Source: Cephalotus follicularis (taxonomy: Eukaryota > Streptophyta > Magnoliopsida > Oxalidales > Cephalotaceae). Taken from it: DNA of 64,000 nucleotides. Below the pieces are notes generated by a model. The model searched no databases. It was not told the origin of the DNA and saw only the letters and a program-made list of their open reading frames with translations. The translations under genes and the position numbers were made by a program. Positions within the stretch are counted from its first letter, which is position 1, and each line of letters opens with the position of its first letter. Below are positions 7,070-44,468 of the stretch, one piece after another. The DNA lies in NCBI GenBank assembly GCA_001972305.1, contig BDDD01000997.1:95677-159676 (forward strand), given 5' to 3'.

Positions 7070-7070
7070 G

Positions 7071-7088
7071 TTGGCGCCGTGTGTAGGA
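7071..7088 (+). other. Primer-binding site of element A (degraded)
   Basis: TGGCGCCGTGTGTAGG starts two bases after the LTR. The same site reads TGGCGCCGTCTGTGGG in elements B and C, so A has two changes. It pairs with a tRNA 3' end during first-strand synthesis; I cannot assign the tRNA with certainty. Confidence 0.8.
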
Positions 7089-7112
7089 AACATAGCAAAA
7101 AGCCATCAAGAA

Positions 7113-8632: not shown

Positions 8633-9077
8633 TTGAAGAATCAAATTGAGGACCTGATTCGGGAGGGGCACATGCACAAGTATGTGGACAGAAATGCTCC
8701 CCAGGGAAGAAGGGAGCTAAGGAGAGAAGAGGCTCCTCGACAACAAGAGGAGCAACAGCTACAGCAACACAGAGGTGTTATCCACACCATCTTTGGGGGG
8801 GTTGTGTCTGGTGGTGACCACAAGAATGCCAAAAAAGCCTATGGGAGGCAATCCCTTGCTGTGCAACAGATTCATCATAGCAAAAGGCTAAGAACATGTG
8901 GAGATGAGGAGGTGATATCCTTCTCGGAGGTGGAATATGAGGGAGTACGTCTTCCTCACGATGATCCAGTGGTGGTAACTCTTCTGGTGGAGCTTTTCAC
9001 TATGAAGAGGATTCTCATCGATAGCGGGAGCTTGGTCGATATCCTTTACAAACACGCATTTGATCAGCTGAGAATAC
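8633..9077 (+). pseudogene. Element A protease, N-terminal part (split by solo LTR)
   Basis: This continues gag-pol after the zinc knuckle. It ends with the aspartic protease active site ILIDSGS (about 9010-9032) and YKHAFDQLRI. At 9078 the frame enters an inserted solo LTR, and the protease resumes at 12014. The protease would process the Gag-Pol polyprotein. Confidence 0.85.
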
Positions 9078-11629: not shown

Positions 11630-12013
11630 GTAAATTTCTGCGCTAAACTGAAACTTGTGCCATGAATTTGAATATATATATACATGCGGGGATTCTCACA
11701 TCTACGGGATTGCTGTTTCATATTATTATTATTTTTATTTATTTATTTTGTTAGTTTACGTTAGATATTTAATTTGAATTGTTTTGTTTTTTTCATTAAA
11801 TTAGTTTAATTCAAAATCAATCATCTTTTCAATTTATTTATTTGTATTGCTAGCTTAGATTAATTTAAATTAGTATTTGTTATTTTTGTTTAGTGGCATC
11901 CTAGGTTTATTTTTATAGCATTTCCTTTCAGCTCTTCGTGGGAACGATCCCTACTTCCACTTGCTAAATTGTTAGATTAGGGTAATTTTGATTCGGTCTA
12001 ACGACACCCATCA

Positions 12014-14418
12014 GATACCGACCGACCAACTAAAGCCCGTGAATACCCCACTGGTTGGATTTACAGGGGAGATGGCCCATCCTCTGGGATCCATCAACCT
12101 GTCCGTGGTTGCAGGCACGGCCCCATACCAGACCAATGTAGAAATGACGTTCCTGGTAGTGGACACACCAAGCCCATACAATGCCATAATTGGGCGACCA
12201 GGAATGAACCTGATGGAGGGGATAGTGTCCACGAGACACTTATTGATGAAGTTCCCAATAAGGTTTGGCATAGAGGAAGCCAGAGGAGACCAACAGGTGG
12301 CAAGGCAGTGCTACAAGACTGCCATACTATAGAAAGGGAAGGAAAATGTACTTCATATTGCCTGTGTGAAGCTCAGAGGGAGCGTGGAACCTAAGCGTCC
12401 ACAGCCTGTTGAGGATTTGATCCAAGTGCCCCTGGAAGAGGGCAACACTAAAAGAATGTTCCAAGTTGGCTCACAGCTTGTAGAGGTGAAGAAGGGGGAA
12501 TTAATAACATTCCTCTAGAACAACAGAGATGTTTTTGCATGGTCGGTAGAGGAGGTCCCTGGGATCAGCCTAAATGTAATGGTACACCCTAAGTGTGGAT
12601 CCAATGAAGCCTTCGATCAGGCAAAAGAAGCAAAACTTTGCTCCTGAGAGGCAGCAGGTAATAGACGAGGAGGTAAGCAAGCTATTGCAGGCAGGGTTCA
12701 TAAGGGAAGTGCATTACTCAGACTGGTTGGGGAACCCAGTCCCAGTAAAAAAAGCAAATGGTAAGTGGAGGATGTGCATCGACTTCACAGACCTCAACAA
12801 GGCTTGTCCCAAGGATCACTTCTCTCTCACCAAGATTGATCAGTTGGTGGATACAATTTCGGGGTACAGAATGTTGAGCTTCTTGGATGCATACTCGAGA
12901 TACAATCAAATTCCTATGTACGGGCCCTACGAGAACAAGACAGAGTTCATCACGGACCGGGGGATGTATTGTTACAAGGTCATGCCCTTTGGATTGAAGA
13001 ATGCAGGGGCCACTTACCAACAACTGGTCAACAAAATCTTTGAGCCTCAGATTGGAAGAAACATGGAGGTCTACATCGACGACATGCTCATCAAGACCCC
13101 ATCCAGAAGCCCCTACATCAAAGACTTGAAGGAAATATTTGAGGTACTAAGAAGATACAAAATGAAACTCAATCCTTCCAAGTGAATTTTTGGGGTCACC
13201 TCTGGTAAGTTCCACGGGTTCATGGTCTCAAGCAAAGGAATAGAGACTAACCTAGCGAAGATCTCAACAGTTCAGAGCATGAGGCCTCCCCAAACCATCA
13301 GGGATGTTCAAAAGCTGAATGGAAAAATAGCAGCTCTAAGTAGGTTTGTTTCGAAATCAGCAGTGAAGTGCCTCCCATTCTTTAAGGTGCTCAGGGATCC
13401 CAAGGGATTTTCCTAGTCAAACGAGTGTCAAGCAGCCTTCGACAATTTGAAGGAATACCTGGCTTCCCCTTCTCTGATCTCAAAACCTAAGGACGGGGAA
13501 GACTTGTGTTTGTACCTTGCGGCCACCTTGGGCGCAGTGAGTGCAGTGCTAATCAGGGAGGAGGAGAAAGTTCAAAGGTCGGTGTATTATGTGAGCAATG
13601 CTTTGAATGATGCTGAGGGGAGGTACCCAGAGGTAGAGAAGTTTGCCTATGCTCTGATCATAGCGGCCAGAAAATTAAGGCCATATTTTCAAGCCCATGT
13701 AATCAAGGTTCTGACTGACAATCCACTCAAACAAGTTCTTGAGAAGCCTGACACCTCGGGAAGATTAATCAAGTGGTTAGTCGAACTAGGCGAGTATGAT
13801 GTGAAGTTCGAAGCCAGGCCAGCAATCAAGTCACAGATATTGGCTGACTTTGTTGGAGATAATACACCTACAGAGTGTATGGAGGAGAACCCCTCCAAGA
13901 ACGAGAGGGGGTTGTGGAAGTTATCCGTGGATGGCTCATCCTACGTCACTGGCAGTGGAGCAGGGCTGGTATTAATAAGTCCAGATGGTTGGACGTTGGA
14001 GTATGCTCTGAGGTTCAGTTTCAAATCTACAAACAACGAAGCAGAGTGGGAAGCTCTGATAGCCGGGCTGATAATTGCAAAGGACTTGGAGGTGCAAAAG
14101 ATAGAAGCCTCCAGTGATTCTCAGCTAGTAGTTAGCTTGACAAGTGGAGAATACAAAGCTCGAGAAGACTCGATGGCCAAGTACTTATCACACTTCCAGA
14201 GTCTGAAGTTAGCCTTCGAAGTTCTAAGAGTTTTGAAAGTACCCAGAGCAAAAAACGCCCGAGCAGACCAGTTATCAAAACTAGTCACGGCAGAGGAACT
14301 GGAGAAAAATCATACCGTGCTAGTAGACTACCTGGACAGGCCAACCATCTCTGAAGTAGATGTGATGGATATAGACATACCACAAGATCCAAAATGGATG
14401 ACCCGTTTCATCAACTGA
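12014..14418 (+). pseudogene. Element A pol: protease end, reverse transcriptase, RNase H and second RNase H (decayed)
   Basis: In order: protease C-terminal half (12014-12332, ending in a stop); RT fingers and palm (12595-13185) with WRMCIDFTDLN and the catalytic VYIDDM; RT thumb/connection (13190-13416); the retroelement RNase H (13447-13830); and a second RNase H (about 13910-14300) with VDGSS, NNEAEWEAL, SDSQLV and ADQLSKL, carrying the D-E-D-D residues. A second RNase H of this kind marks the Tat lineage of plant Ty3/Gypsy elements. In-frame stops include UGG-to-UAG at 13414 and others near 12332, 12520 and 13183, so the polyprotein cannot be made. Confidence 0.9.
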
Positions 14419-14429
14419 CTGAGGAACGG

Positions 14430-15631
14430 GATTCTACCCGAGGACCCCCGCAGAGGCAAGAAAACTGGTGTATAGATCAAACAAGTTTCAGCTCCGAGAT
14501 AGGATCCTCTACAAAAGGTCTTTCTCTTTTCCTTGGCTGAGATGCTTGACTCCCTTAGAGGCCGATTATGCTCTAAGGGAAGTCCATGAAGGAGTTTTTG
14601 GCAACCGTACAGGGGGCAGAACCTTGTCCCACAAACTATTAAGGAAGGGCTACCACTAGCCGACCTTGTACCAAGATGCCATAGACTTGGTAAGAAAATG
14701 TGACAAGTGTCAGAGGAACGCAAACATAAGCAGAAGACCTTCTCAACCTCTGACCTCCATCATGGCCCTTTGGACCTTTGCACAATGGGGGATGGACTTC
14801 GTCAGACCACTACCCATGGCGACAGGCCAGAGGAAGTTTCTTATTGTAGCAGTGGATTATTTTACCAAGTGGGTAGAAGCAGAACCTCTGGCCACAATCA
14901 CATAAAAGAACACGGAGAGTTTTGTATGAAAGTCTATTATCTGTAGATTCGGAGTCCCGAGGACAATAGTCTCAGATAATGTAAAATAGTTTGAGTGTCA
15001 GGCATTCTGTGGATTTTCCAAAGAGTGGAGAATAGAGCATAGGCTTGCCTCAGTAGCCTACCCCTAGAGCAATGGTCAAGCCGAGGTGATCAACAGAGAA
15101 ATCATCTCAGGCTTAAAGAAGCGCCTTAAAGATAGGAAAGGAAGATGGACAGAGGAGCTACAAAGTGTACTATGGGCATACAGAACCACTCCTCAGACCA
15201 CAACTGATGCGTCCTCATACAGCCTTTGTTTTGGAGCTGAAACTATGATACAGGTGAAAATTGGTGTACAATCACCAAGGGTTGTGCACTTTACTGAAGA
15301 GAACAATGAAGAAGGACTTAGGTGCCTCCTTGATTCAGTAGAAGAGCTCAGAGACAAGGCAGCCATCAGAGTTGCTGCTTACCAACAAAGGGTGAGCCGT
15401 TACTATAACAAAATAGTCAGCCCCCGACCACTAAGGCAAAAAGATCTAGTCCTACGCAACTCAGCTAGTGCAGATCCAACCAGTACCAGAGGAAAACTAG
15501 CCCCTACTTGGGAAGGACCATACAAGATCAAGAGAGTGCTCCGCCCAGGAACATTCAAACTTGAAACTCTTGGGGGGAGGGAGATTTCCAGAGCTTGGAA
15601 TACTGAGCATTTGAGAAAATACTATCAATGA
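14430..15631 (+). pseudogene. Element A integrase (decayed)
   Basis: Integrase inserts the cDNA into the chromosome. The HHCC zinc domain (about 14560-14730, VHEGVFGN, CDKCQRN), the core with WGMDFV and a TDNG-like segment (14780-15100) and the C-terminal region (15086-15631) are all recognisable. The frame is broken by UAG for Trp (14657), UAA for Glu (14904), UAG for Gln (15066) and other changes. There is no chromodomain after the core, which fits Tat rather than chromovirus elements. Confidence 0.88.
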
Positions 15632-16585
15632 TTTTGTGTAAGATGTACTAAATTCTGAACGGCAATAAAGTTGAATTTTTTTCAAAAATTGTGTTCAAGA
15701 TCATTGTTCCAAGTTTGCAAGGGACCGGAGGCCCAATGTCATGTCCTTAAACCTCTGAACAGCTGCCGATCAACTCTCTCAACTCACCAAAAGCCTCCTC
15801 CAGGGGAGCACTCAACAAAGCCTTTTCCAGGGGAGCATTTAAAGCCTCCCTGCCAGGGGAGCGACCAGAGCCTCCCCTCCGGGGGAACAAACAAAGACTC
15901 CCCAAAAAAGACCCCCCAGAGGGGCAATTCAAAAAATACTTTCAATGAAGCAATAAGACTTCTCAGGGAGCAAACACTGGTCGGAAACACCATGGGAACT
16001 TGTTTGACCATACCTAAAAGCGTGTCTTGAAAGACGAATCCATGGGAACTCGCAACGATCAAGTTCATTGGACTGAGCACTTTGAAACAAGTGTCCCTAA
16101 GTGGACTGCAAGCTCAGATGACCTGGTCTAGACTATAATAGACCAGACGAGACACTGCTTGGCAAACCCATAGGAACTTGCCCAAGCAGGCCTAGAACTT
16201 TTTCTACGAACACATCAAAACTCGTAAAGACTAAGCCTTTTTGCCTAAGCGCCTTTGAAATAAGGTATCCTAAAAGGACTATAAAGTTTAGGTAACCACA
16301 CCTGACAATTGTAAGGCCGTACTACAAAGTCTATAAGTTAGACGAAGTTGAATTTCCTAAGGAAATTGTTCGTGCCCGGGAAGAGCTCGAGCCTACCATA
16401 TAATGCATTGATAGGAAAATAAGCTCGGGGAGAAAAAACTTAGTGCTTTGTTGGTACCTTATAATATTTCAAAGCAGAAAAGTAAAGCATACAAAGGAGA
16501 GATGCCAAACACTTCATTTTTATTGATTAATAGAAGATTACATTGCAAAAGAAAAGAAAAATACAAGGCAAAGTAAAAATCTATC
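15632..16585 (+). other. Element A spacer between pol and the antisense gene, with short palindromic repeats
   Basis: This is non-coding element sequence. At 15780-15920 there are several roughly 30-bp repeats built on a (T)CC(A/T/C)GGGGAGC core (CCAGGGGAGCA). Homologous spacers occur in B (34763-35951) and C (61673-62757), where the core reads TTCCGAGGAGC. The stretch 15960-16480 keeps blocks shared with those spacers, such as CATGGGAACT and GATCAAG. Confidence 0.65.
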
Positions 16586-19400
16586 CTAATTCTTGTCCCC
16601 GGAAGGGACTTCATACACGATTGGAGGAGGAGGAGGATTTTCTGGAGTCGGGTCAGTTGGCAAAGGTGGAGGATCTTCAGCTAAATTCTCGAGAAGATGA
16701 TCCACGACCACGAGCCCAGGAGAAGGATCCACAACCAGGGGATCAGGACCAGTATCCTCAGCAAGAAGTGTGGAGAGGGGTTCCACATCCGAGGGCTCAG
16801 CATCAAGCTCCCCGGTAGCACCAAGGAACATGACCACGTCGCGCCCCTCAGGCGTCCACTCAGGATCCCAAGCTTGATCCTGATCCTCGTCCAAGGCTTG
16901 GAAGGCCCTCTCTTCGGCATCCTCAACCCCGTCAGGGATGAAGTCATATTCATTCACCTGAGGCCCTCAAATGATGGACTCCAGTGGAAGTTTAGGATGA
17001 AACTCAACCATGTTTCGACGGCAAAAAAAGACTGAAGACTTCTTGAAGACCTCTTTGTTGAAATCCTCTTAAGCCCTAAAGTTCTCCACAGCCCTGGCCA
17101 TGGCATCTTGAAACTCCATGGAAGTCTTGTAATTCTCCACGGCCCTGTCCTGAGCCTCCTGAAACTCCGAGGAAGCCTTGAAGTCAAGAACGACCCTCGC
17201 CACGGCAGCTTTGTTCCGGACCCCCTCAAGGTCTTTATACTCTACAAGCCTGTCGCCGTAGGCCTTCACCTTTTCCTCAAGAAGAGCGATCTTCTCAACG
17301 GCAGCCTGCCTTATCCTCTTCTCCCTCTGTAAATCTTGGAGGGCTTTATCCTTCTCGGTATTGAGGCCCTCCTGGACCCTGGTCACATCTTCGAGCTGGG
17401 CCCTTAGCACATCCTCCTTCCTCTTGAACTCAGCGTTCTCAGCCCCAATTTGTTCAAGCAGGGCACTCTCCTGCTCAGCCCTCTCCTTTTCAATCTGGGC
17501 ATCGTTCATAAGCTAAGAAAAGGAAGGCATTGTCAAAAGAAAGTTGGGGATCCACAGATTTCAAAAGGTTAGAAAAAGTTTACTAACCCTAAAGTATCTT
17601 TGGAAGAGGTGAGTCCATAGGTGGGGAATGTCCCAATCCTCTCTCAACTCCACTTCGTGGGGGAAGAGACCAACCTTTCCGAGCTCAATGACTACCCCCG
17701 ACTTCTTCAAGTTCACCCTAGACTTGCCGAGTCTGGTGAGGATCTTGCTAATTTGCTCCATCTCCTTGGCAGGATATATGAGGGCAGGGTCCTCGGAGCC
17801 CTCCTCAACGGGTTCGACCCTAGGTGCATCCCCCTCTTCCGTCCTCTGCCCCCTCGACGGATGGTCAATGTCGTCGATAGCAGCTTGCTTGTCCTAGGCA
17901 ATCTCAGCCCTCCTCTCCTCAGTTTGGCAACCACATCCACATTGGTCTCGGCCACCTCAGCAACCCTGACCTGGGTACCAACGACCCCCTCGGCCCTGGC
18001 CTCCTTGGGCGCCTCAGCCCTGGCCCTTGCCTCCTCAACACTTTTGTGAGCCCTCTCCTCGAATCTAGCCCTTGCCTCATCGGCATTCTTCTGGGCACGC
18101 TCCTCAGCTTTGGCCTTATCATTGGGCACCTTTGAGGCTCCTTTTCCTGCCCCGACAGTGGTTTTCCTCCTTATGAGGGCCTTTTTCTTCGCAGCAGCCT
18201 CTCGCCACCACTCCTTAGGGTCCTGCACCCTGACCTGCTCCTGGGAAAACCTGACGGCTTCCAGAGCTGATTCTTGATTCGTCATCACTGTACAAAAGTG
18301 TAGAAGGAAGGTTAGAAAAGCCCCAAGAGCAAAGAATGAAGGAAAATGAAAAATAATCCAAGGGAAAGCATAGTACGGCTCTCTCCTTGGCCGGTTGCAT
18401 TGGACTCAGGTCCATCTCGGGCATCCATGCTCCTTCCCCTCTCAATCCCCACAGCTGCGGAGCAGGGTCTATCTCGGGCGCCCGAACTCCCTTCAATCCT
18501 AATCCCCATGGGGACCTCCTTAGCCAGGTCCGGGCTAGCCCTACGGCCAAGAGACATGCTGAGCCAATGGAGTTGTAAGCTGATCTCGGAGGCCACCACT
18601 AGCACCTCCTCAGAGGCAAGCGTCAGAAGCTTGCCCATGCCAACCTTCTCCACCCTGCTCAAAGACACCCTTTGGCTAAGGGCCACGGTGTCCAGGGTAT
18701 CACTCCACGGGCTTGGCGTGAAGTAAGGAAGGTTCTTGATCATGAAGTACTTCTCCCTCCAATTTTTGACCGTCCTGGTGTTCTCCGCCAGCAGTTTGTG
18801 ATGACCCACGCGTGACTTGAAGTAGAAGTCGCGCTTCTTTGGGGAGGAGGTTTTGGTATGGAATTCCTTAAACAGTCCTACAGTGGCTGTCACCCCCGCC
18901 TCTAGGCACCTAACCAGGAAGCATATAATGAACCCCCATGACTGGTCCTGGAGCATCGAGGGGTGAACCTGGTAGTGTTCGAGGATGGTGACGATGAAGG
19001 GAGGCAGAGGGAACCTCAGTCCATGTTTCAGAGCATCTTGGAACACCACGAAGCAGCCCGACCTGCTCTCCACGATAATCCTGGGATTAGCAGGGATCTC
19101 AAAATCAATACTTCCAGGGATGTAGTACTCCTAGACCAGCTCAGCCAACTTTTGGGTGCCTATCTTAGTCTGTTTAAAGAAGGGCTCAGCAACTTGGACC
19201 CCAGCCTCTCTGGCCGCCTCGTTGGGATTCCTGGCAGCGGAAGCCCCCATCTCCACCTCCATGTCTCGGGGGTGCTCAGCAATGGTGACCCCCATGGACA
19301 CTCGGGCTACCACTTCAGGGCGTCTGACCAGCCTCCTAGTTTGTTTGGTCTTGGCCATGGTATTTTCAGAGAGAGAGGAAGACGAAGACAAAGTGGACAT
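16586..19400 (-). pseudogene. Element A antisense gene (aORF): H3-tail-like start, Transposase_28-like domain, coiled coil
   Basis: The gene lies on the strand opposite to gag-pol, as described for extra ORFs of some Tat elements. The ATG at 19358 starts MAKTKQTRRLVRRPE; an in-frame ATG 14 codons upstream (19400) gives MSTLSSSSSLSENT before it. A stop interrupts at 19131. The next block (19073 to about 18400; LRFPLPPF, FLVRCLEAGVTATVGLFKEFH, YFMIKN) resembles the plant 'putative gypsy-type transposon' domain (Pfam Transposase_28), judged from memory. Likely introns: donor near 18384 to acceptor near 18291, and donor near 17588 to acceptor near 17512. Downstream come a charged Ala/Glu/Arg-rich stretch (18288-17900), a coiled coil (17509-17069, MNDAQIEKERAEQE) and an acidic Pro-rich C-terminus (16957-16586). 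Function is unknown; this copy is broken by at least one stop and one or two frame changes. Confidence 0.78.
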
Positions 19401-19580
19401 GGGAAATCTTTATCAAGCAAAAGGTAAACAGAAATTGAGGGAAGCTATTCACCTGGAGATCTAAGTAAAGAAGAAAGCGAAGTTACTGAGTTTGAAGATT
19501 GAAAGAGCAAGGGATTCAAGAAATCTAGTGCTTTTAGGGATTACGAATGCGCAAAGAGGATACCCAAATTGGGAGAGGAG

Positions 19581-19588
19581 TATTTAAA
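19581..19588 (-). promoter_or_regulatory. TATA-like box of the element A antisense gene
   Basis: TTTAAATA on the minus strand in the context GGTCTTTAAATACTCC, 230 bp upstream of the MAKTKQT ATG. The same block occurs in fragment D (TTTAAATA at 43625-43632, 222 bp before its ATG). Element B has TATAAAAG at a similar distance. Confidence 0.5.
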
Positions 19589-19992
19589 GACCCTGGTAAC
19601 GCATCCAGACTATAGATCTTAATTGATCTTAACGGTGGAGATCCCCTTATCAAATCAGGAGCGGTAAACGAAGGGTTTGAGGGCTGGCACCGAAGCGTCA
19701 GGCGTTCAAAATTCATAAATTACGGCGCAATGATGAGAATTAATTGAAGGGGTATGGCGCAAAATGGCATCTATCATGTCATATCTCATCAACAAGTGAT
19801 TTGGGCTATAAGGATTGAACTCACTTAAGGAATGAGTTTGTCTTATCAGCTAAGGGCTAATCTCTACTCGAGGCCACGCACGTCTAATTTTTACCCCTTC
19901 CCTGGCCAGTTTGACTTCAGCCCTGCAAGAGAGCTCTGCCCGGGTAATAACTCTTAACTCTGCTCTTTCTCCTCTTCCATGGCCAGAGAAGA

Positions 19993-20009
19993 AGGACCAG
20001 GGGGGCATA
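19993..20009 (+). other. Polypurine tract of element A
   Basis: GGACCAGGGGGGCATA directly precedes the TGATATGG start of the 3' LTR. It would prime second-strand synthesis. Element C has the equivalent GGATCAGGGGGGCATA. Confidence 0.75.
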
Positions 20010-20561
20010 TGATATGGGGGAAATTCTATTTAAAACATAGTGTCACGTGCCCTCAGGAGAGGAAGACAGATGTCTTTTCTTGGCATGGGCACGTGGCCGG
20101 GCGTTATAATTTTAAAGGCGTTAATGCTCCACGATCCTAGGGCGTTACCAGCCCACAACCAGAAACGTACACGGCACCACATCCTAAAGGGAAAGTACAC
20201 CAAATTCGACGGAGATCGGGGGAAATGCCCGGGATCCTCAGGCATTTTCCTTAGGGGCAACCGTCAACTCTGAATTCCATGCTCTACTTTACATCCAAGG
20301 CCTATAAATACGAAAACCAACGACTTTATACAGGTCAGTCATTTTTACTCTCACAAGAACCAAGTATTCTCTGTGCATTGTCTAACTTGAGCGTCGGAGT
20401 GTCCCCGGGAGAACAGCCTCCTGGACCTTCAACCTTTTTGCTCTATTTGTGTAGAGATTATCAACCGAATCACTTTCTCGGACATAGATTCTAGCGTTTC
20501 CATTTACAAATCAAAGTCCTCCACGTAGGACACTGTTGAAGAAAGGATTTATGCATCAACA
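20010..20561 (+). mobile_element. Element A 3' LTR
   Basis: 552 bp, TGATATGG...GCATCAACA. It carries GGGCACGTGG in U3, a TATAAATAC box near 20303 and the conserved R/U5 block with TGAGCGTCGGAGTGTCCCCGG. It is followed by ATATATAT, which matches the TA-rich 5' flank of the element. Confidence 0.92.
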
Positions 20562-30267: not shown

Positions 30268-30382
30268 TCCTCGGGTGAAGACGAAACTAGATTTTTATCA
30301 AATTGCATTTTCCTCTAAATATTTACAATTGTTAAAGGTTAATTACTTAATTTGTTTGTTTTTGGAAATTAAAATTCAGAAC

Positions 30383-31255
30383 TGATATGGGAAAAAAGTG
30401 AATTATACCAAGAACAACACGTGTCCTCCGCAGACATAACCAAGTGCCCAAGGGTCTCGAAGTTTATATGGATGCTAGTCAGAGGAGGCTTATCAAGCCA
30501 TGGAAGGAGAAGCAGATGGAGATATCCTCCTCGGCATCAGTGCCGAGGAACTCCCCATTAGTGGAGTTGTAGAATCCACCCTCCTCGGCATAAGTGCCGA
30601 GGACCTCTTTTCCAACACTGGTGCCGAGGACCCAGCCAAAGGTATTCCTCATCAACTGCAATATATCAGTTACCTTCCTCAGCAGTTTGGCAGAGGACCT
30701 ACCACTTCAGGCGTCAGCCCAAAAAGAAGCCATGGAACTTGAACACCTTAAAGAAGATAAATGACCAGAAGTATTTTTCTCCTCGTCCTCGGCAGGACGA
30801 AACCATAAAACCAGCCTACTTTTCAGGGATTTAACTTTCCTAAATATGGAAGATAAGATAAAATTAACTATCCATAAAGAAAGTAGCGACAAATCAGGTG
30901 GAGATAAGGGAAATCCCGAGATCCTCGGCATTTCCTTAGGGGACAGCTATCACCTCCACATTTCACGCTCAGACAGTTACAAACCAGCCATATAAATACA
31001 AGAATCAAACACATATCTCGGGTCAGCCATTTTTACTCTCAAATAACCTTGTTTTTACTGTGCATAGGTATAACTTGAGCGTCGGAGTGTCCCTGGGAGA
31101 ACAACCTCCTGGACCTTCAACGTCTTTGCTCCTCTGTGCAGGAAAAACACTTACAACCTTCCACCTTCACCTCGGAGCATTAAAGTAGCGTTTCCCTAAA
31201 CAAATCAAGCCCTTACACGCGGGGTACTGTTGTGGGAAGGATTTTTGCATCAACA
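30383..31255 (+). mobile_element. Element B LTR, left, now in inverted orientation
   Basis: 873 bp, TGATATGGG...GCATCAACA, the same length as the right LTR at 41131-42003 and about 95 percent identical by eye, but on the opposite strand. It is followed by AAATC (31256-31260), the reverse complement of the GATTT that follows the right LTR. It has a TATAAATAC box (about 30992) and the conserved R/U5 block. As a simple solo LTR it would lack a matching target duplication (AGAAC before, AAATC after), so an inversion of the original 3' LTR of B plus its flank explains it better. Confidence 0.9.
30529..30602. repeat. Paired perfect hairpins in LTR U3
   Basis: CCTCGGCATCAGTGCCGAGG (30529-30548) and CCTCGGCATAAGTGCCGAGG (30583-30602) are perfect eight-base inverted repeats around four-base loops. 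A third, AACTCC...GGAGTT, lies between them. They sit in U3, upstream of the LTR TATA box. The right LTR has the same array with a few changes. Confidence 0.8.
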
Positions 31256-32178: not shown

Positions 32179-32186
32179 TATAAAAG
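32179..32186 (+). promoter_or_regulatory. TATA box of the element B antisense gene
   Basis: TATAAAAG in GGGCCTATAAAAGGAC, 206 bp upstream of the MARTKQTAR ATG. This spacing is close to that in A (230) and D (222). Confidence 0.6.
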
Positions 32187-32384
32187 GACATCTACTTCAC
32201 TAAGCAAACCTTTTACTTCTTCAAACTCTCTTCCTTGCATCGCCGTTGTGAGCTCCTGAGATTTACAGTGCCCTCAACCTTCATTCCCCTGCCATTCTTT
32301 CATCACAGTCTTTGGTAAGCTGCCAGTTTTTTTGTTGTCACTCTAAGTGGGACTTCTTTGGCTTCTTCTTTTCTGTCCGAATAG

Positions 32385-34762
32385 ATGGCTAGAACCAAAC
32401 AGACTGCTAGGCCTTCTCTTCCCTTAGAAGTCGAACCCCTGGCCATTGTGGTTCCCAACGCCGAAAGTCTCATTTCCTCTGAAGGTAGCCTGGGGGCTGC
32501 GATCGGTAACCCGGCTATTCCTGTCACCGAGGCTGACACCCTTGCCCCAGATTGCTTTGGTGTCAGTACAATTTCTCGCGAGGAGGTGATAGAGCTTTCT
32601 CGTAAATATACTGCTGGGTTGAGATTTAGTCTCCCCTCGGATCCTCGGATGGTCACCGAGAGTAGGGAGGGCCTCTTCGCTGTCTTTGAGGGCGCACTCT
32701 CTCATGGTTTAAGGGTCCTTGTGCCCTCTTTTGCTCTCTCGGTCTTGCAGACATTTCATCTCCACCCTTCTCTTCTCCAACCTCAATCTGGAGCTTCATC
32801 TTGGGCTTCTTAGTTAGGTGCCTAGAGTCCGAGGTGACTGCAACAGTAGGACTATTCAAAGAATTCCACATCATCTCGTCCTCACCAGGAAAGCATGGCT
32901 ATTTCTTCAAGTCCCGCCCTGGTGTGAAGAAAATTCTTTTGAATCCCACTAAATCCATCAAAAACTGAAGGATGAGATACTTCCTCATAAAAAATTTCGA
33001 GGGGTTCACCTCCCCTGTCTGGTGTGACTCCATGGAAACTACACGCCTTAACAGGAGATCTCCTCTGACAACGGCAGAGAACATGGACCTTGATAAGCTC
33101 TTGCGTTTGGAGCCCGAGAAGGTGAACTCTACAGTGGTTGAGGATCGTCTGCTCTGAGCCGGGCTGAGTGTAGTTCCCATCCGAGAATCATGCCCAGCAG
33201 ACGTCGAGGACACCTCAGGGGGTGGGGGATCCCCAGATAAATTCATGCCCCAAGAGATGGGGGGAAACTGTATAAAGCCTTTGTCTCCTCCGGTTTCTTG
33301 TCTTCGTATTTCTTCTGTTGTCTTACTATCTGTTGTCATGTTCTTGACTTTCTTACTTCTTTTTTGTGTAGCAATGTCTTCTCGGCGAGGATTTGATGCT
33401 CTCTTCGGCGCTGCCAAGATCACCAAAACCTCCTCTGCTGAAGCAAACAAGCGGAAGGCTGCCGCGGAGGCAGCCAAGCAAAAGGAAAAAGAAGCTGCCG
33501 AGGGGGCCAGGCGGAGGGCGAAGGCCGCTGCCGAGGGGGCCAAGGAGATGAAGAAGGCTGCAGTGGCAGCCAAGGAGAAGGGAGCCAAGCGTCCTGCTGG
33601 GGGGCGTTCCTCTGGTGCTCCTCCTCATCCCCAAGCAAAAAGGGGAAGTATGTGTCCGAGGCCGAGGTGGAGTCTGCTCTCGGCAAGACCTCTAACAACC
33701 CCATCATTTTGCCTCCTCCCGGGGATGTGGAGAGAATGATCGAAGAGTTGGAGGGGGTTGTAAATGAGTCCTCCAGCTTGGATACCCTCGGGGTGCCATT
33801 CGCCCTTAGCTCTCTGTGCCTCTTCCCTGACAAGCTGAAGGAGAGGAATGACTGGTCCAACAAGGACTTAATCTATAACTCCCTGCGGAGCCATTTAGAG
33901 GTAAAGGGGGATCCTCTTCTTGTGTGTTTTACATTCTTATGTCCTTTCGATTCTCATTCCTGTGTCTTCTTTGCAGGCTCTAAATGATCATCACCTCTTG
34001 GTCGAGAATTTCTCCATCATCATGGAGAGGTATGACAAAGCAAGGGAGGAGCTGATGATTGAGATGGAAACCTCTCTCATGGCCAAGGCTCAGCTAGAGG
34101 AGGTCCTTAAGGCTCAAGAGTCGGCCGTGGAGAAGAGGAACAAAGCCCTCATGGAGAGGGACCACATGATGAAGGGCCTCAACAAGATCGGAGACCAGCA
34201 CCAGGCGATGCAAAACAAGCATGAGGAGTTCGTCAAGAAACAAGAGGAGTTGCAGGCCAAGGCAGTGGTAGACACCCTGACAGAGTTCCAGTCCTCGGAC
34301 GAATTCCAAAGCTTGACGGAAGCCTCCGTGGAGGATTACAAAGCTTCAGAAGCCTTTGGCGATGAAGTCTTCAAGGAATCCGCCGAGTACTATCGTCGGG
34401 GGTTCTACACTTGTAGGAACTGGGTCAAACCTTTGCATCCCGAGGTTCCCTTAGACGAGGTCTCCTACTGCTCAGCTGCCAAGGCTTTCGACTACTATCC
34501 TGATGGGTATGAAGCCGATGAGGTGAGGACCGAGAAAGCCTTGGAAGGAAGAGCTGGCCTAGGGGCCGTGGAAGAGGAAGGGGAAATCCTGCCTGCTCCT
34601 GAAGCTGTACTCGGCCAAGGAAGTGAGGCTGAAGGAGATGGGTCAACCGTGGTGACCATTCCTCTGTCGGATCCTGCGATGACCTCATCTTCATTGGATT
34701 CCACCTCGGTCCTTGTCACTCCTCAACCTCCTCCAAGTAGACCTTTTGTTCCTCCTCCTTAG
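32385..34762 (+). pseudogene. Element B antisense gene (aORF) beginning MARTKQTAR
   Basis: This gene is antisense to the gag-pol of element B. It starts at 32385, with an in-frame TAG immediately before the ATG; that TAG could itself be the end of a 5' UTR intron running from the GTAAGC at about 32313. Residues 2-9 are ARTKQTAR, identical to the N-terminus of histone H3. Then follow an acidic linker; a Transposase_28-like domain (about 32650-33120, LRVLVPSF, RCLESEVTATVGLFKEFH, RYFLIKNF); an Ala/Lys/Glu-rich stretch (33410-33600); a likely intron at 33270-33371 and another at 33901-33976 (GTAAAG...TTGCAG); a coiled coil (33977-34300); and an acidic Pro-rich end (VTPQPPPSRPF). It is damaged by a frame change near 32785, a UGA for Trp near 32967 and a frame change near 33640. 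The biochemical role is unknown. Confidence 0.82.
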
Positions 34763-35951
34763 AGGATGAACCTTCTCTTGATGCTCCTCCCGTAGCTTAG
34801 TTTTTGTAGGCTAGCTTTTTTTTTTCTTCTTTTTGCCTTGTAATAATTTTCCTTTTCTTGTATTCGTAATCTTCAGTTTATGAATAAATAAAGACCTTTC
34901 TGCATTCTCTGACTTTGTCTTTGATTTTTTACATTGTGTGCTTGAGCTTTGCATGTATGAATGTGTTAAGAATTCCCTTAGGAATTCTAGCTTTGCCCAA
35001 GTTACTGACTCCTCTAAAGAACCGTACACTTAAGCTTAACGATCCTTGTTGGACACTGTTTTGATAGCACTTATGTAATTTATCAAAGATATTAATAAAA
35101 GACCTTTTGTATTCTCAGGTCGTATCTTTGGTTGGTTTCTTGCATTGTGTTTGAGCTTTGCATACACATACATGTGTTGATAGTTCCCTTAGGAATTTTA
35201 GCTTAGCCCAAATCTTTAAATCTTCGTAGATGAGATCACTTAAGCTTGGCAGTCCTCGTAGGACACTTCACTTCCAATGCGCTTAAGTAATTGTAACTTA
35301 ATCTTCAAGAATTTTGCTGTACTCATTGATTAAGTTTTTGGTCTACTCGGACAAGTTCCTATGGGTTTGCCGAGGAGAGTGTCATCTGACCTATTAGGTT
35401 TTAGGACAGGTCAGCTCAGCTTTCAGTCCACATAGGGACACTTGTATTAAAGTGCTTAGTCCAACGAGCTTGATCGTTGCGAGTTCCCATGGATTCGCCT
35501 TTCAAGTCACGACTTCAGGTCTGGTTGCACAAGTTCCCATGGTATTGCCAAACACTGTGTGCTCCCTGGGGAGTCTTAGTGTTTCCTTGGAAGTCTTTGG
35601 GCGGTCCTCGGAAGGAGTCTTTCGACGTGCTCCTCAGAAGGAGGCTTTTAGCTTGCTTTGCATCCTTGAGTGTTTTCTCGGATGTCTGTTACCTCGGCCT
35701 GTTCGAGACCTCGGCATGTGTTGGTTTCCCTTTGAGAGTTAGTCTTTGTAAGACTTGGAAAGCCTTGGATCTCTAAATGCCCCCTTGGGGGCATGATCCG
35801 AGATGCTTAGAGTAAATATTGAGGGAGTTGATCGGTGGCTGTTCAGAGGTTTGAGGACATGAACATTGGACCTCCGGTCCCTTGCAAACTTGGAACTATG
35901 ATATTGAACGCAAATTTTGAAAAATTCAACTTCATTCAGTACATCTTACAA
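34763..35951 (-). other. Element B spacer between pol and antisense gene
   Basis: Non-coding; homologous to the spacers of A and C on the other strand (shared CTTGATCGTTGCGAGTTCC-type block, palindromic CTCCTCAGAAGGAG unit near 35625). Two polyadenylation-like AATAAA signals (34885, 35093) lie downstream of the antisense gene on the plus strand, which suits termination of its transcript. Confidence 0.6.
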
Positions 35952-38850
35952 TCATTGATAGTACTTCCTCAGATGCTCGGCATTCCAAGCTCTGGCAATC
36001 TCCCTACCCCCCAAAGTTTCAAGTTTGAATGTTCCTGGGTGGAGGACCTTTTTGATTTTGTATGGCCCTTCCCAGGCATGGGCTAGTTTTCCTCTGGTAC
36101 CGGCTGGATCTGCAATGGCTGAGTTGCGTAAGACTAGATCTCCTTGTCTTAGTGGCCTAGGGCTTACCCTTTTGTTATAGTAGCGACTCACCCTCTGTTG
36201 GTAGGCTGCAACTCTGATCGCAGCCTTATCTCTTAGTTCTTCCACTAGTTCGAGGATGCATCTGAGGCCTTCTTCATTATTGTCTTCAGTAAAATGTACA
36301 ACTCTTGGTGATTGTACTCCGATCTCCACCGGTATCATAACCTCTGCCCCAAAGCATAGACTGTATGGGGATTCACCAGTTGTAGTCCGAGGGGTTGTTC
36401 TGTATTCCCATAGCACGCTTGGTAGCTCCTCCGTCCATCTTCCTTTGATATCTTCTAAGCGCTTCTTGAGGCCCGAGATGATTTCTCTGTTGATCACCTC
36501 GGCTTGACCATTGCTTTGGGGTTAGGCTACTGAGGCAAGCCTATGTTCTATCCTCCACTCTTTGCAAAAGTCACGGAAGGCTTGGCAATCAAACTGTTTA
36601 CCATTATCTGTGACAATTGTCCTCGGGACTCCGAATCTGCAGATGATTGACTTCCATACGAAGCTCTCCGTGTTCTTCTCTGTAATTGTGGCCAGAGGTT
36701 CTGCTTCCACCCATTTAGTGAAGTAATCCACTGCTACAATGAGGAACTTCCTCTGGCCTGTCGCCATAGGTAATGGTCTGACAAAGTCCATTCCCCATTG
36801 TGCAAAGGGTCATGGGGCCGTGATAGATGTCAGAGGTTGAGAAGGTCTTCTGCTTATGTTCGCGTTCCTCTGACACTTGTCACACTTTCTTACCAGGTCT
36901 ATAGCATCTTGATGCATAATTGGCCAGTAGTAGCCTTGCCTCAACAGCTTGTGAGACAATGTCCTGCCCCCAGTGTGGTTGCCACAAATTCCTTCATGGA
37001 CCTCCCTTAGAGCGTAATCGGCCTCTGGGGGGTTCAAGCACCTCAGTCAAGGGAAAGAGAAAGATCTTTTGTAGAGGATCCCATCTCGGAATTGGAATCT
37101 GTTTGCTCTGTAGACTAGCTTCCTCGCCTCCACGGGGTTCTCAGGCAGGATCCCGTTCCTCAGCCAATTGATAAAGGGAGTCATCCAGTTTGGCTCCTGT
37201 GGTACATCTATGTCCATTACATCTACTTCAGAGATGGTTGGTCTGTCCAGGTAGTTTACTAGCACGGTTTGATTCTTCTCCAACTCCTCTGTCGTTGCTT
37301 GTTTTGATAACAGGTCTGCTCGGACGTTCTCTGCCCTAGGTACTTTCACAATCCTTAAAACTTTGAATGCTGACTTCATGCCCTAAAAATGGGACAAGTA
37401 TTTTATCATAGGGTCTTCTCTGGCCTCATACTCCCCATTTGTCAAACCAACCACTAGTTGGGAATCACTGGAGGCTTGAATCTTTTGCACCTCCAAGTGC
37501 TTTGCGATCGTCAGTCCAGCTATCAGAGCTTCCCACTCAGCTTCGTTATTTGTAGCTTTAAACTTAAACCTCAGAGCATACTCCAACGTCCAACCATCTG
37601 GACTCGTCAATACTAACCCTGCTCCACTGCCAGTGATGCAGGATGAACCGTCCATGGATAACTTCCAAATTCCCCTCTCGCTCTCGGAGGGGTCCTCCTC
37701 CATACACTCCGTAGGTGTATTATCTTCAACAAAGTTGGCCAGTACCTGTGATTTGATTGCTGGTCTAGCTTCGAACTTCACATCATACTCGCCTAGCTCG
37801 ACTGACCACTTGATTAATTTGCCTGAGGTGTCAGGCTTGGCAAGAACTTGTTTGAGTGGTTTGTCAGTTAGAACCTTGATTGTATGGGCTTGGAAATATG
37901 GCCTCAATTTTCTGGCCGAGATGATCAATGCATAAGCAAACTTCTCCACCTATGGGTACCTCCCCTCGGCATCGTTCAGAGCCTTGCTCACGTAATATAC
38001 TGGCTTTTGAACTTTTTCCTCTTCTCTGACTAGCACTGCACTCACAGCGCCCGAGGAGACCACAAGGTACAAATACAAGTCTTCCTCATCCTTGGGCTTC
38101 GAAATCAGAGGGGGGAAGCCAGGTATTCCTTCACCTTGTCGAAGGCTGTTTGACAGTCGTTAGACCAAGAAAATCCCTTGGGATCTCTAAGTATTTTGAA
38201 GAAGGGGAGGCACTTCTCGGCTGATTTCGACACAAACCTGCTCAGGGCTGCAATCTTCCCATTTAATCTCTGGAGTCGATGCACATCCTCCACTTGCCAT
38301 TTGGTTTTTTGACTAGCACTGGATTCGCCAGCCAGTCTGAGTAGTGCACTTCCCTTATGAACCCTGCCTGCAATAGCTTGCTCACCTCCTCGGCTATTGC
38401 TTGCTGCCTCTCTGGGGCAAAGTTCCTCTTCTTTTGTCTGGTCGGGGGCCTGGCTGGGTCCACGCTTAGTTTGTGAACCATTACGTATGGGTTGATCCAA
38501 GGGACCTCCTCTGCTGACCAGGCGAAAACATCTTTATTATTTCGGAGGAATGTTATTAATTCCCCATTCTCCGCCTCTCCAAGTTGTGAGCCAACTTGGA
38601 ACACTTTCTCATTGTCACCCTCTTCCATGGGCACTTGGAGCACATCCTCAACAGGCTGTGGGCACTCAGGTTCCACATCTCCTCTGAGCTCCACGTTCGC
38701 TATGGGAAGTATCTTGTCCTTTCCACCGTCCGAGATGGCTGTTCTGTAGCACTGTCTTGCTGCCTGTTGGTCTCCTCTGACCTCCCCCACGCCAAACCTT
38801 GTTGGAAACTTCATCAATAAGTGTCTCGTAGACACTATGGCCTCCATTAA
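35952..38850 (-). pseudogene. Element B pol: RT remnant, RNase H, second RNase H and integrase (decayed, RT core deleted)
   Basis: Read on the minus strand: the protease end and RT N-terminus (38850-38275) run to WRMCID, then jump at about 38274 directly to the thumb/connection segment (RLNGKIAALSRFV). Compared with element C about 523 bp are missing, including the YIDD catalytic site, and the frame is lost. RNase H (about 38130-37760), second RNase H (37700-37300, VDGSS-like MDGSS, NNEAEWEAL, SDSQLV), integrase HHCC (37037-36830), DDE core (36791-36520) and C-terminal region (36497-35952) follow. There are further stops: near 37950, 37381, 37040 and a UAA in the integrase at 36522. This element could not reverse-transcribe itself. 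Confidence 0.88.
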
Positions 38851-41085
38851 GTTCAGACCTGGTCACCCCACTATAGCATTGTAAGGGCTGGGTGTGTCCA
38901 CCACCAGGAATGTCATCTCTACCTGAGTCTGGCGTGGGGCCGTGCCTGTAACCACGGACAGGTTGATGGATCCTAGAGGATGGATCGTCTCGCCTGCAAA
39001 GCCAACCAGTGGGGTCTTTACGGGCTTTAGCTGGTCTACCGGTATCCTCAGCTGATCAAATGCGTGTTTATATAGGATATCAGCCGAGCTGCCACTGTCA
39101 ATAAGAATTCTCTTCATGGTGAAGAGTTCCACCAGAAGAGTTACCACCACTGGAACATCGTGAGGGAGACGTACTCCCTCATAGTCCACCTCCGAGAAGG
39201 TTATCACCTCCTCGTCTCCACCAGTTTTGAGCCTTTTGCTGTGATGGACTTTTTGCACAATAAGAGACTGTCTCCCGTAGGCCTTTCTAGCATTTTTATG
39301 GTCGCCACCAGATGCGACCCCCCCAGAGATTGTATGGATGACACCTCTGGGTTGCTGCTGCTGTTGCTGCTCCTCTTGTTGCCGAGGAGCCTCTTCTCTT
39401 CTCTGCTCCCTTCTTCCTTATGGAGCATCTCTGTCTACGTATTTGCGCAGATTTCCCTTTCTGATCAGATCCTCAATCTGATTCTTCAGCTGCCTGCACT
39501 CCTCGGTATCATGCCCATGGTCACGCTGGTACCGATATTATTTCTCCACGTCCCTATTCTCGGCCGGGGACCTCAACTTCCCAGGCCACTGGAAAGGGAC
39601 TTTATCTTGCTCCACAACAAGTATTCTGGTGCGTGTGTCCAGGAGGGGGGAAAAGTTGTTGTAAGATGGGATTGGTACTCCTCCCCTGGATGAACCATCA
39701 CGTCTGGAGAGTTTATGTCTAAGGTCTTCCTTGGTCAACTCCGACCTTTCCTTCCTCTTCTCTTTCCTCTTGGGAGCATTTGATGAATGCTCCCGTTTCT
39801 CCTCCTGATGGCCAGACCAGGGTGTCTTTTGTTTCCTGGCTGCCATCTCTTCCTCGGCATTGACATGTTTCTCCGCTCTCCTTAGCAGCTCTGCCCTGTC
39901 CATCGCGAGTCTCTTTAGAAGAGAGAAGGTGAAGGACGAGTTGCTCCTCAGCCCGCTGTTCAAAGCTGTCAGTGCAAATGATGGCCCCAAATCTTTCACT
40001 GTGAGAGATTCCCTGTTGAATCTGATGAGGTAATCCCTCAGTGACTCATCTTTACCCTGCACCACATTGATCAAGTGGGTGGAGTTCCTCCTCTGTGTGG
40101 TGCTGCTGAGAAACTTGGTTACGAACAGTTCCGTAAACTGATCGAAGTTCTCCACCGAATCCTTCTCCAATGTGAAATACCATGACTGGGCAACTCCAGT
40201 CAAGGTCGCTGGGAACCCTCGGCAAAGCATAGCGTCCGAGGCCTGGTACATCCACATAGCTTGAATGTAAGAGCGTACATGCTGGATGGGGTCCGTGGAC
40301 CCATCATATTTATCAAGGCTTGGGTATCAAAACCCGCTGGGGACTTGCTCTGCCATTATCTCGGACATGAAAGGGTGGGCACTAATGTTTCGTACCTCTG
40401 ATAGATGCCCCCTATGCTGTTCCGTTCCTCGGAACCTTCTTTCCAACTCGGTAAGCTTTTTATCCACTACTTGCTCCACATCCTCTATGTTCCTAGCCCT
40501 TCTAGAAACACGTGACCCTCCAACTGCTGAGGCTGGGGGGTCAACCCTGCTTCCTCGCGCTATACCAGCTCTGCGCGGAGCATTGGAGCGCACTTGCGCC
40601 TCCTCTGCTCCCCTCGCTTCATGCCGAGGATCCACGTCCATGGCTTGGTGTTGAGGGTGCGCTCTCCTGGGATTGTTGGGTTGATCCCGGGCAGTTGAGG
40701 ACTCTGCCCTCTGAGAGGCATTGATCCCAGGTCTCCTCCCCAAGGGAATGTTGTCCCCTGACCGCCTAAGGGGAAGTTCGTCTCCCCTCGACGGGTTTTG
40801 CCTGGCACCTCGTGGGTGCCGTATCTCCACCTCTGGTCTGTTGGGATCAGAAACTCCTCGGACCACTTGCTGGACAGGCCCGGCTTGCTGCTGTTGGTTG
40901 GCTAAAGTTGTGACCAACATGTCAGTGATACGCTCCATTCCCTAGAGGAGTTGATTGAGCTGCTCCCCTGTGACGGGAGCTTGTTCTTGGACCGCCGCTT
41001 GGACAGCTTCTGGGAGAGGAGCCGTGACCTCCTGTTGTTGACTGCCTGTGGCTCCAAACTGGTTGTTGTTCTTCCTCGGAGGCAT
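38851..41085 (-). pseudogene. Element B gag and protease (decayed)
   Basis: The gag ATG lies near 41085 (MPPRKNNNQFGATGS). A UAG for Gln near 40944 interrupts it, after which it reads on as GMERITDMLVTTLANQQ through 40327. There is a frame change near 40260-40330, then the gag core (40257-39700), the Arg/Lys-rich region, the zinc knuckle near 39530 and the protease with ILIDSGSSADILY (about 39118-39080). A UGA replaces an Arg codon at 38861 (CGA to UGA). Overall order and length match element C. Confidence 0.87.
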
Positions 41086-41130: not shown

Positions 41131-42003
41131 TGTTGATGCAAAAATCCTTCCCACAACAGTACCCCGCATGTAAGGGCTTGATTTGTTTAGGGAAACGCTA
41201 CTTTAATGCTCCGAGGTGAAAGTGGAAGGTTGTAAGTGTTTTTCCTGCACAGAGGAGCAAATACGTTGAAGGTCCAAGAGGTTGTTCTCCCGGGGATACT
41301 CCGACGCTCAAGTTAGACCTATGCACAGTGAAAACAAGGTTATTTGAGAGTAAAAATGGCTGACCCGAGATATGTGTTTGATTCTTGTATTTATAGGGCT
41401 GGTTTGTAACTGTCTGAGCGTGAAATGCGGAGGTGATAGCTGTCCCCTAAGGAAATGCTGAGGATATCGGGATTTCCCTTATCTCCACCTGATTTGTCGC
41501 TACTTTCCTTGTGGGTAGTTAATTTTATCTTATCTTCCATATTTAGGAAAGTTAAATCCCTGGAAAGTAGGCTGGTTTTATGGTCTCGTCCTGCCGAGGA
41601 CGAGGAGAAAAAGACTTCTGGTCATTTATCTTCTTTAAGGTCTTCAAGTTCCATGGCTTCTTTTTGGGTTGGCGCCTGAAGTGGTAGGTCCTCTGCCAAA
41701 CTGCTGAGGAAGGTAACTGATATAGTGCAGTTGAGGAGGAAGACCTTTGGCTGGGTCCTCAGCACCAGTGTTGGAAAAGAGGTTCTCAGCACTTATGCCG
41801 AGGAGGGTGGATTCTACAACTCCACTAATGGGGAGTTCCTCGGCACTGATGCTGAGGAGGATATCTCTATCTGCTTCTCCTCCCAGGGCTTGATAAGCCT
41901 CCTCTGACTAGCATTCATATAAACTTCGAGACCCCTAGGCACTTGGTTATGTCTGCGGAGGACAAGTGTTGTTCTTGGTATAATTCACTTTTTCCCCATA
42001 TCA
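41131..42003 (-). mobile_element. Element B 5' LTR (right end)
   Basis: 873 bp; its complement reads TGATATGG...GCATCAACA. It is followed on the right by GATTT (42004-42008), the element's target duplication. TATA box TATAAATAC near 41393 (minus). It is nearly identical to 30383-31255, but here in the orientation expected for the minus-strand body. Confidence 0.93.
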
Positions 42004-42331
42004 GATTTCACTAAAATATTAATACTTTAATAACTTTTATATCATTGATAAATTGTTAGGATGTGACTGTTTTCATTATAAATAAAGCATGAGATATAAA
42101 ACATATTTATAAATATAAAATTTATTATTTATAAAGAATAATGTTATTGATCACAAATGAGATCATAAGTGAGTTATCAATATTTTTTTTTTTAAAAACA
42201 AGACTTTTATTAAAACAATCATCAACTCACTTGTTATTTATTTGTGATGCTACACACTTATGATTAATAACATTACTCATTTATAAAATATAAATAACAG
42301 ATTTAACATATAGTGATACATAACACTAATC

Positions 42332-43113: not shown

Positions 43114-43497
43114 ATCAAACACAGTGGCGTCCCGGGGGTCAGCTGGAATCTCCAAGTCCAGCCCGCCAGGGATGGCATACTCCTTGGCCAGCTGAGCCAG
43201 TTTTTGTGGGCGCATGGAGGACTCTACGAAATCGGCCCGGAAAACCTGGACCCCGGCCCCAGTGGCCTCAACGTTGGGGTTTCCAGCGGCGGAGGCCCCC
43301 ATCTCCACCTCCATATCTAGGGGCCGGACCGCCACCGTAACCCCCTCAGACGCACGGGCAATCGCTTCAGGGCCTCGGACGAGCCTGCTCGTCTGCTTTG
43401 TTCTCGCCATTAGGTTGCCAGAGAGAGAGGACGAGGAAGATGAGGTGGTCATAGGAAGATTCGAACAGAGGGAAAAGATGAACGGAGATAAGCTCAC
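43114..43497 (-). pseudogene. Fragment D antisense gene, 5' part, with MARTKQTSR
   Basis: This is a truncated relative of the antisense genes of A and B. The ATG at 43410 starts MARTKQTSRLVRGPEA; an in-frame ATG 14 codons upstream (43452) gives MTTSSSSSSLSGNL, closely parallel to element A. The frame continues through DMEVEMGASAAGNPN and YAIPGGLDLEIPADPRD, then leaves the element at about 43114 and enters flanking DNA. The Transposase_28-like and coiled-coil parts are missing. Confidence 0.8.
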
Positions 43498-44468
43498 CTT
43501 GTTTCTTGCGTTTGAGAGAGGATGAAGGTAAGAGTTTTGGGGGGATCTGGAGTTTTTTTTTCTTTCTCTCTAAGGCTTTTAGGGATTAAGAATGCGTAAA
43601 GAGGCTCTTTGGGGAAGAAAGGGGTATTTAAAGGCCCCTAGGGCGAATCTGGGCCGTAGATCCCAGGATCCATCAAGGGTGGAGATCCTCCTGCCAGGTC
43701 AGGGGTGGTTAACGAGGGGACACGCGCAGGTGTCGAAGCGTCACGCCTTAATCTTGAAGGGACGTGCTCGAGGATCGAAGCGTCACGCCTTAAAAGATGG
43801 TGGGATGGCACGCGCGAGTATTGAAACGTCAAACGTTTAAAGTCCCGAAGGGACGTGCACGAAGATCGAAGCGTCGGGCAGATAAAGGAAATTTATGGCG
43901 CAATGATGGATATTAGGTGATGGGGCGTGGCTCGAGGTGACACCTGTTGCACCCTACCACGTCTAAATGATTGAGCTATTTCTCTAGGCATAGACCTAGT
44001 TCACCCAACACAAGAACCTAGGGAGGGGCCTTCGGCCCTGCCTCTACCCTTCACCTGGTCCGCCCAGGCACGCTCAGCGCGTCAGCCCGGGAGGAGCCCG
44101 TGGTCCGGTCCCTGTCCTTCACCTGGTCTGCCCAGGCACGCTCAACGCGTCAGCCCGGGAGGAGCCCGCGGCCCGGTCCCCGTCCTTCACCTGGTCAGCC
44201 CAGGCAGGGGATCATCCCCCGGGGGAGACCAGCCCGACCCCGTTCCCTCGACTATGTTCCCCCTCCTCTGGCACGGCCAGAGAAGCAGGACCAGGGAGTA
44301 CCCCCGGGAGAATAACCTCCTGGACCTTCCTCCCTTTTCTTGCTTGTGCAGGGACTAGCTACCACCCTTACTCATACACCCTTTCTCGGACATATTCGCG
44401 CATTCCCCAAAAACAAATCAAGCTCTTACACGTGGGGTGCTGTTGTGGGAGAGATTTCCGCATCAACA
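43114..44468 (+). mobile_element. Fragment D: 3' end of a fourth Tat-type element
   Basis: It contains the antisense gene's 5' part (minus strand), its TATA-like box (43625-43632), a GC-rich spacer with direct repeats of a 70-bp unit (44050-44200, CTTCACCTGGTC and CGCGTCAGCCCGGGAGGAG), a polypurine-like stretch and the end of an LTR (R/U5, CCGGGAGAATAACCTCCTGG ... GCATCAACA at 44468). Most of U3, all of gag-pol and the 5' LTR are absent. The LTR end is followed at once by GTATG, the first bases of the right 781-bp repeat. Confidence 0.82.

Follow-up and report, generated by a model that had tools for sequence, protein, structure and literature searches.

Retand-type elements in the window

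The window, the whole 64 kb stretch of Cephalotus follicularis DNA analysed here, contains the remains of Retand-type (Tat, Ty3/gypsy) LTR elements, in which an antisense accessory gene encodes a protein with a Transposase_28 (TRP28) domain. The elements and fragments are called A to D, and their main parts are as follows.

6541..20561, + strand: element A, Retand-type element with antisense gene, LTRs, PBS and PPT
18858..19049, − strand: Transposase_28 domain of A (PF04195; E=6.3e-10, above the curated cut-off)
30382..31255, + strand: LTR to the left of B, 96% like the 5′ LTR of B but inverted to it; does not qualify as a regular 3′ LTR of this element
32385..32813, + strand: initial coding segment for the antisense TRP28 protein of B; stop after 142 aa, reading frame disrupted near 32789
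32685..32789, + strand: partial Transposase_28 domain of B, weak (E=0.04, under the curated cut-off), alignable along the domain of A
33374..33736, + strand: later Lys/Ala-rich stretch of B, 22 K+R in 80 residues, no Pfam match
33920..34762, + strand: later coding stretch of the antisense gene of B, for which A has a distant counterpart (16889-17404)
35069..40938, − strand: gag-pol remains of B (gag, RNase H, additional RNase H), on the strand opposite the antisense gene
41131..42004, − strand: 5′ LTR of B, then the PBS (TGGCGCC at 41128)
43114..44468, + strand: Retand fragment D, with the 5′ end of the antisense gene and the LTR end CATCAACA, between two ~780-base direct repeats
53513-63509, + strand: element C, whose gag-pol has two long frames, of 757 and 853 aa, and whose LTR stretches are 97% identical

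In element A, the 5′ LTR (6541-7069, its first bases replaced by TA repeats) is followed by a PBS at 7072, and a PPT at ~20000 precedes the 3′ LTR (20010-20561). The antisense gene runs from 19400 toward 16.9 kb and is placed between pol and the 3′ LTR, the arrangement that marks Retand elements carrying an antisense TRP28 ORF; B carries the same ORF with its weak but alignable domain. The Pfam domains gag, RNase H and RVT_3 were found in both A and B in a partial test, and the antisense proteins of the two elements have 37% of residues in common across the first 154 aligned positions. The 3′ LTR of B is missing or inverted. The 5-base sequence AAATC lies right after the left LTR (30382-31255) and also adjoins the outer end of the right LTR (41131-42004), and together with the opposed orientation of these LTRs it may reflect either an inversion at this place or a solo LTR of separate origin.

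Fragment D retains just the first ~110 codons of the antisense gene, too short to show TRP28. Its ~780-base repeats were considered as LTRs and rejected, as their ends are not LTR-like and the Retand LTR end sits just before the right repeat. Element C encodes gag and RT in 55312-57582, and RNase H, RVT_3 and integrase in 59111-61669; an N gap (63510-63534) interrupts its right LTR. This is the Retand order of gag, RT, RNase H, additional RNase H and integrase, which according to a survey is found in both Retand and Ogre elements (PMC6317226). The antisense gene was not found in C. The LTR divergence (K2P) is 0.125 for A and 0.034 for C.

Structure prediction of the TRP28 region gave a mean pLDDT of 37.2 and no usable model. 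A search for relatives of the TRP28 stretch of A returned 2 pattern matches in viral contigs and 104 in prokaryote contigs, none of which was confirmed by tblastn. The Lys/Ala-rich stretch of B may provide nuclear targeting or contact with DNA.

Other features of the window include pieces of a host gene with XH (4e-20), XS (9e-35) and zf-XS (4e-23) domains at 25530-26330(−) and 27240-28307(−), between elements A and B, whose make-up we take to be that of IDN2/FDM/SGS3-type silencing factors. Part of the XS/zf-XS gene region is included in a direct duplication (1-2471 and 27900-30267, 86-92% identical). A CAF1-family ribonuclease ORF at 45631-46536(+) (4e-23) is possibly a host gene or a gene copy. 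Element A contains a perfect 1276-base tandem duplication (9078-11629; 9078-10353 = 10354-11629, 100%), which may be recent or may stem from the assembly. A diverged tandem-repeat array (21859-22553) matches 20636-20908 in inverted orientation.

The N-terminal motif in three copies

In A, B and D alike, the stretch of interest is the 5′ end of the antisense Transposase_28 ORF, an ORF already described in Retand/Tat LTR elements. The original prediction was that the antisense protein of B begins with the tail sequence of histone H3 and that two other copies keep the pattern, and the sequences and coordinates it gave are correct.

32385..32411, + strand: motif of B, MARTKQTAR, encoded by ATGGCTAGAACCAAACAGACTGCTAGG; identical to H3 residues 1-8 after Met removal
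19332..19358, − strand: motif of A, MAKTKQTRR, starting at 19358, from reading and alignment
43384..43410, − strand: motif of D, MARTKQTSR, starting at 43410, from reading and alignment

In register with H3 residue 1, the matches are 8/8 in B, 7/8 in D and 6/8 in A, and the exact eight-residue match is found in one copy of three, that of B. Residue 9 of B is Pro rather than the Lys of H3, as had been noted, and residue 10 is Ser, as in H3; no likeness extends beyond this point. A six-frame search of the 64 kb for A[RK]T[KR][QNHK]T returned just the A, B and D sites, and a search with a degenerate DNA pattern (≤3 mismatches) returned the same three, with none in 100 shuffles. When the first 21 residues of B were searched against solved structures (PDB), the sole chain at E≤10 was histone H3 7uqj_G, in a match starting at residue 1 and spanning 12 residues, whose E value of 1.1 is not significant by itself. 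The start Met is common to the three copies and is always encoded within ATGGC, the third base of the next codon varying, so that Ala follows Met in each.

Capture of a histone H3 gene is rejected as the source of the motif: likeness to H3 stops after residue 10 (B) or residue 8 (A, D), and the 142-residue B query matches no H3 chain at E≤10.

That all three copies are damaged, another point of the original prediction, is borne out by an in-frame stop in A, a frame that breaks after residue ~135 in B, and an end at about residue 108-113 (counted from the upstream ATG) in D.

Conservation of the motif

Conservation was measured on a codon alignment of A, B and D, taking the eight residues after the start Met as motif columns and 79 gap-free columns as linker. 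Six of the eight motif columns are invariant in the three copies, compared with 16/79 in the linker (Fisher 0.0029). Between A and D, 7/8 base differences within the motif fall at third positions (binomial 0.0026), which makes conservation at the DNA level, for example of a regulatory site, unlikely. For B and D, dN is 0.12 in the motif, with dS saturated, and 0.84 in the linker. Fisher tests for identical residues give 0.0016 for B-D and 0.016 for A-B, and are not significant for A-D (0.36); tests of synonymous versus non-synonymous codons are not significant for A-D (0.14) or A-B (0.24). In neutral simulations on the three-copy tree, at least 6/8 residues survived in 0.015% of runs (≤0.00015) at the lowest divergence tried; at either of the higher divergences the count was 0/60,000. 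The expectation that MA(R/K)TKQTxR is retained at the amino-acid level, beyond neutral drift in simulation and relative to the linker, is therefore upheld within the window's three copies.

Several results temper these numbers. Column shuffles produce a 6/8 block at the N-terminus itself in 0.28% of cases and in any 8-column window in 11.6% (P ~0.12), and the scan over all windows makes the block less striking because the motif was chosen for looking conserved. For A and B alone, windows of the TRP28 region are as conserved as the motif (6/8). The A-D linker is also constrained, with 37/78 differences at third positions (binomial 0.007). The sample consists of two lineages (A/D and B) from one genome, all copies being damaged. 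With the caveat of the all-window P ~0.12, the conservation of the motif in this alignment appears to exceed chance.

Where translation starts

Whether the motif is N-terminal depends on the choice of ATG, for which the following features are relevant.

32179..32186, + strand: nearest TATA-like box of B, 206 bases before the motif ATG
32315..32384, + strand: possible 5′-leader intron of B (GTAAG...TAG), ending right before the ATG; putative, identified by eye
19398..19400, − strand: upstream in-frame ATG of A, the first ATG after the TATA-like box
43450..43452, − strand: upstream in-frame ATG of D, aligned with that of A

Counting back from the motif ATG, the first TATA-like box is reached at −206 in B, −222 in D and −230 in A. 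The promoter of B is a putative one, since six further TATA-like matches occur in AT-rich DNA farther upstream. Between the nearest box and the motif of B there are no ATGs, and a stop codon directly precedes the motif ATG. In A and D, the upstream in-frame ATG that the original prediction had raised as a caveat is present at −42 bases (14 codons), and translation from it would place the start of the motif at residue 16; its context is weaker than that of the motif ATG of A. In the 13 codons between the two ATGs, 7/12 A-D differences are at third positions (binomial 0.066), and the open frame says little because the stretch is C/T-rich. The matching stretch of B is not frame-conserved. The ATG-free leaders are weak evidence, given that composition alone predicts a leader free of ATG with probability 0.36 in B; above the −42 ATG the corresponding values are 0.24 in A and 0.75 in D. 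Judging from the leader sequences, the motif of B is probably N-terminal, and those of A and D are possibly internal owing to the in-frame ATG at −42, except if leaky scanning carries initiation on to the second ATG.

A proposed docking motif and its alternatives

We give a probability of about 0.5 to the reading that the conserved N-terminus is a docking motif of a nuclear accessory protein, which is held on DNA by its TRP28 and Lys-rich part and binds a host nuclear partner. It starts from the anatomy of the antisense gene, the conservation of the motif and the TATA-like boxes at −206 to −230, all directly observed, and docking to a partner is the role we infer as most likely. The accessory protein is probably nuclear and DNA-bound. 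In the proposed mechanism, A-(R/K)-T-K-Q-T-x-R would be a short linear motif that protein-level selection preserves, and the linker between it and TRP28 would evolve faster. The protein would be anchored to DNA in the nucleus through TRP28 and the Lys-rich part, and the exposed N-terminus would bind one host nuclear partner that aids element expression or integration. A reader of the H3 tail is one candidate for this partner, not an established one.

A docking peptide fits best because the uncharged T, Q and T are kept together with K and R, and because B has few basic residues for import. Against it stand the narrow sample of damaged copies and the frequency with which shuffles yield a 6/8 block somewhere in the alignment, both described above, and the absence of an antisense gene from element C. 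In addition, Transposase_28 is reported in 23% of Retand elements, and the function of such extra ORFs is doubted in that source (PMC6317226).

A second reading, which we consider unlikely, is that the N-terminus is a basic patch for nuclear import or non-specific DNA/RNA contact, its H3 likeness being incidental. The first 15 residues contain 6 K/R in A, where R-R-L-V-R-R lies within the stretch, and 4 in D, and the Grande relative is reported to be nuclear (PMC7264820). B, however, has only 3 K/R and no cluster, and its later Lys-rich stretch could carry out import. The uncharged T, Q and T are kept as well as the charged residues, and an import signal would not need them.

Somewhat less probable still is an artefact of the start region, in which ATGGC persists because it favors initiation, common descent accounts for the next few residues, and the likeness to H3 is a functionless coincidence. 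The scan-wide P ~0.12 is in keeping with this, as is part of the chance background. Among IMG/VR viral contigs, the degenerate pattern MA(R/S)TKQT matched 115 stretches, all 115 of which were read by script. MARTKQT accounts for 33 matches in 15 rough sequence clusters, 8 with ORFs of at least 45 aa; none of the 33 continues as H3 and none is MARTKQTAR. The permuted control MATKRTQ gave 32 matches (13 clusters, 8 with an ORF of at least 45 aa) in the same contigs, and MAQTRTK gave 11 (8 clusters, 2 with such an ORF). With 8 and 2 for the controls against 8, seven-residue starts of such make-up recur without a visible histone link, although the second control is rarer than MARTKQT. The eight-residue form matched 10 stretches in a prokaryote collection of 84,980 species genomes, and all were inspected: 7 are H3-like tails, probably from eukaryotic contamination, 1 has Ser at position 2, and the last 2 lie in ORFs 28 and 19 aa long. 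Apart from H3-like tails, exact MARTKQTAR is thus absent from ORFs >28 aa in the prokaryote genomes scanned, which argues against the artefact, with the limit that this background is prokaryotic rather than plant. The residues are also kept while third bases changed, and neutral drift in the simulations loses them. Whether the identity with H3 in itself exceeds chance is difficult to assess.

Mimicry of H3, in which the N-terminus after Met removal is read as an H3 tail, is improbable in our estimate. In this reading the TRP28-tethered tail would occupy LSD1-like (LDL) demethylases or PHD/SAWADEE readers. Local H3K4 methylation would then be kept up, and SHH1/Pol IV recruitment and RNA-directed DNA methylation (RdDM) would be weakened. 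The matches in register with H3 residue 1 favor this, as does the motif ATG of B being the first after the nearest TATA box. Against it are the exact match in one copy only, P9 in place of K9, the upstream in-frame ATG in A and D, and viral-contig MARTKQT starts that are as common as one of the two permuted controls. R2 of H3 is contacted by many H3 readers, and it is replaced by K in A. N-terminal acetylation of Ala could also block H3 readers, and the abundance of H3 would force any mimic to act locally.

A precedent is offered by GFI1 and SNAI1, whose N-terminal SNAG domain mimics H3 and fills the pocket of LSD1, but SNAG requires its Pro, as binding is abolished by P2A, and H3 peptides compete less well than SNAG (PMC5896174). 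An H3-identical peptide would accordingly be a weak competitor against abundant nuclear H3. The residue after Met removal is Ala, not Pro, in A, B and D. A plausible plant target is suggested by Arabidopsis, where, at a subset of loci, plants lacking LDL1/LDL2/JMJ14 have more H3K4me2/3, fewer siRNAs and less RdDM, with SHH1 as the proposed link; only a subset of RdDM targets, near genes, is affected in these mutants, however, and the establishment of methylation is not (PMC3820799). The broader proposal, that an LTR lineage encodes an antisense, DNA-tethered true H3 tail mimic diverting H3K4 demethylases or readers and countering RNA-directed DNA methylation, has in our view a slightly smaller chance still.

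Returning to the docking motif, the function of the TRP28 protein is described as an open question (PMC11963269, PMC7264820), and a conserved N-terminal motif offers a cheap, concrete test of it. Even without mimicry, the motif would remain a likely docking site.

Comparison with known systems

The antisense TRP28 (PF04195) ORFs of Retand/Tat elements, among them gene23 of Grande and the antisense ORFs of RIRE2 and Retand, are likewise antisense to gag-pol and carry TRP28, found here in A. Antisense TRP28 ORFs occur in 97% of recently active Retand clusters and are a hallmark of recently active Retand elements; DNA binding is predicted and the function is given as unknown (PMC11963269). The antisense protein of Grande is reported to be nuclear, and a promoter is reported upstream of its gene (PMC7264820), comparable to the TATA-like box upstream of each window copy. 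The additional RNase H before integrase described for Retand/Tat elements is likewise present in C. An H3-like N-terminal motif is not described in the Retand and Grande papers, in whose main texts, as far as available, "histone" and "N-terminal" occur 0 times (PMC11963269, PMC7264820). The motif strings gave no full-text literature match, and no element-encoded H3 mimic was found in the titles and abstract starts of the plant transposable-element "histone mimic" literature.

Histone H3 itself has the same first eight residues as B, and the likeness ends within the first ten residues in all three copies. In the animal proteins GFI1 and SNAI1, SNAG is a short N-terminal peptide read as an H3 tail, and the same is proposed for the window motif; SNAG starts with Pro, whereas the window motif starts with Ala as in H3, and belongs to a plant element.

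VANDAL elements are DNA transposons. VANC of the Arabidopsis VANDAL elements is an element-encoded accessory anti-silencing protein, the role proposed for the window protein under mimicry; VANC is sequence-specific, its abstract contains no H3 mimic, and the anti-silencing role of the window protein is putative (PMC5735166). A true mimic would be an LTR-element counterpart of VANC working by histone mimicry, a new anti-silencing device that would help explain the retention of the antisense gene.
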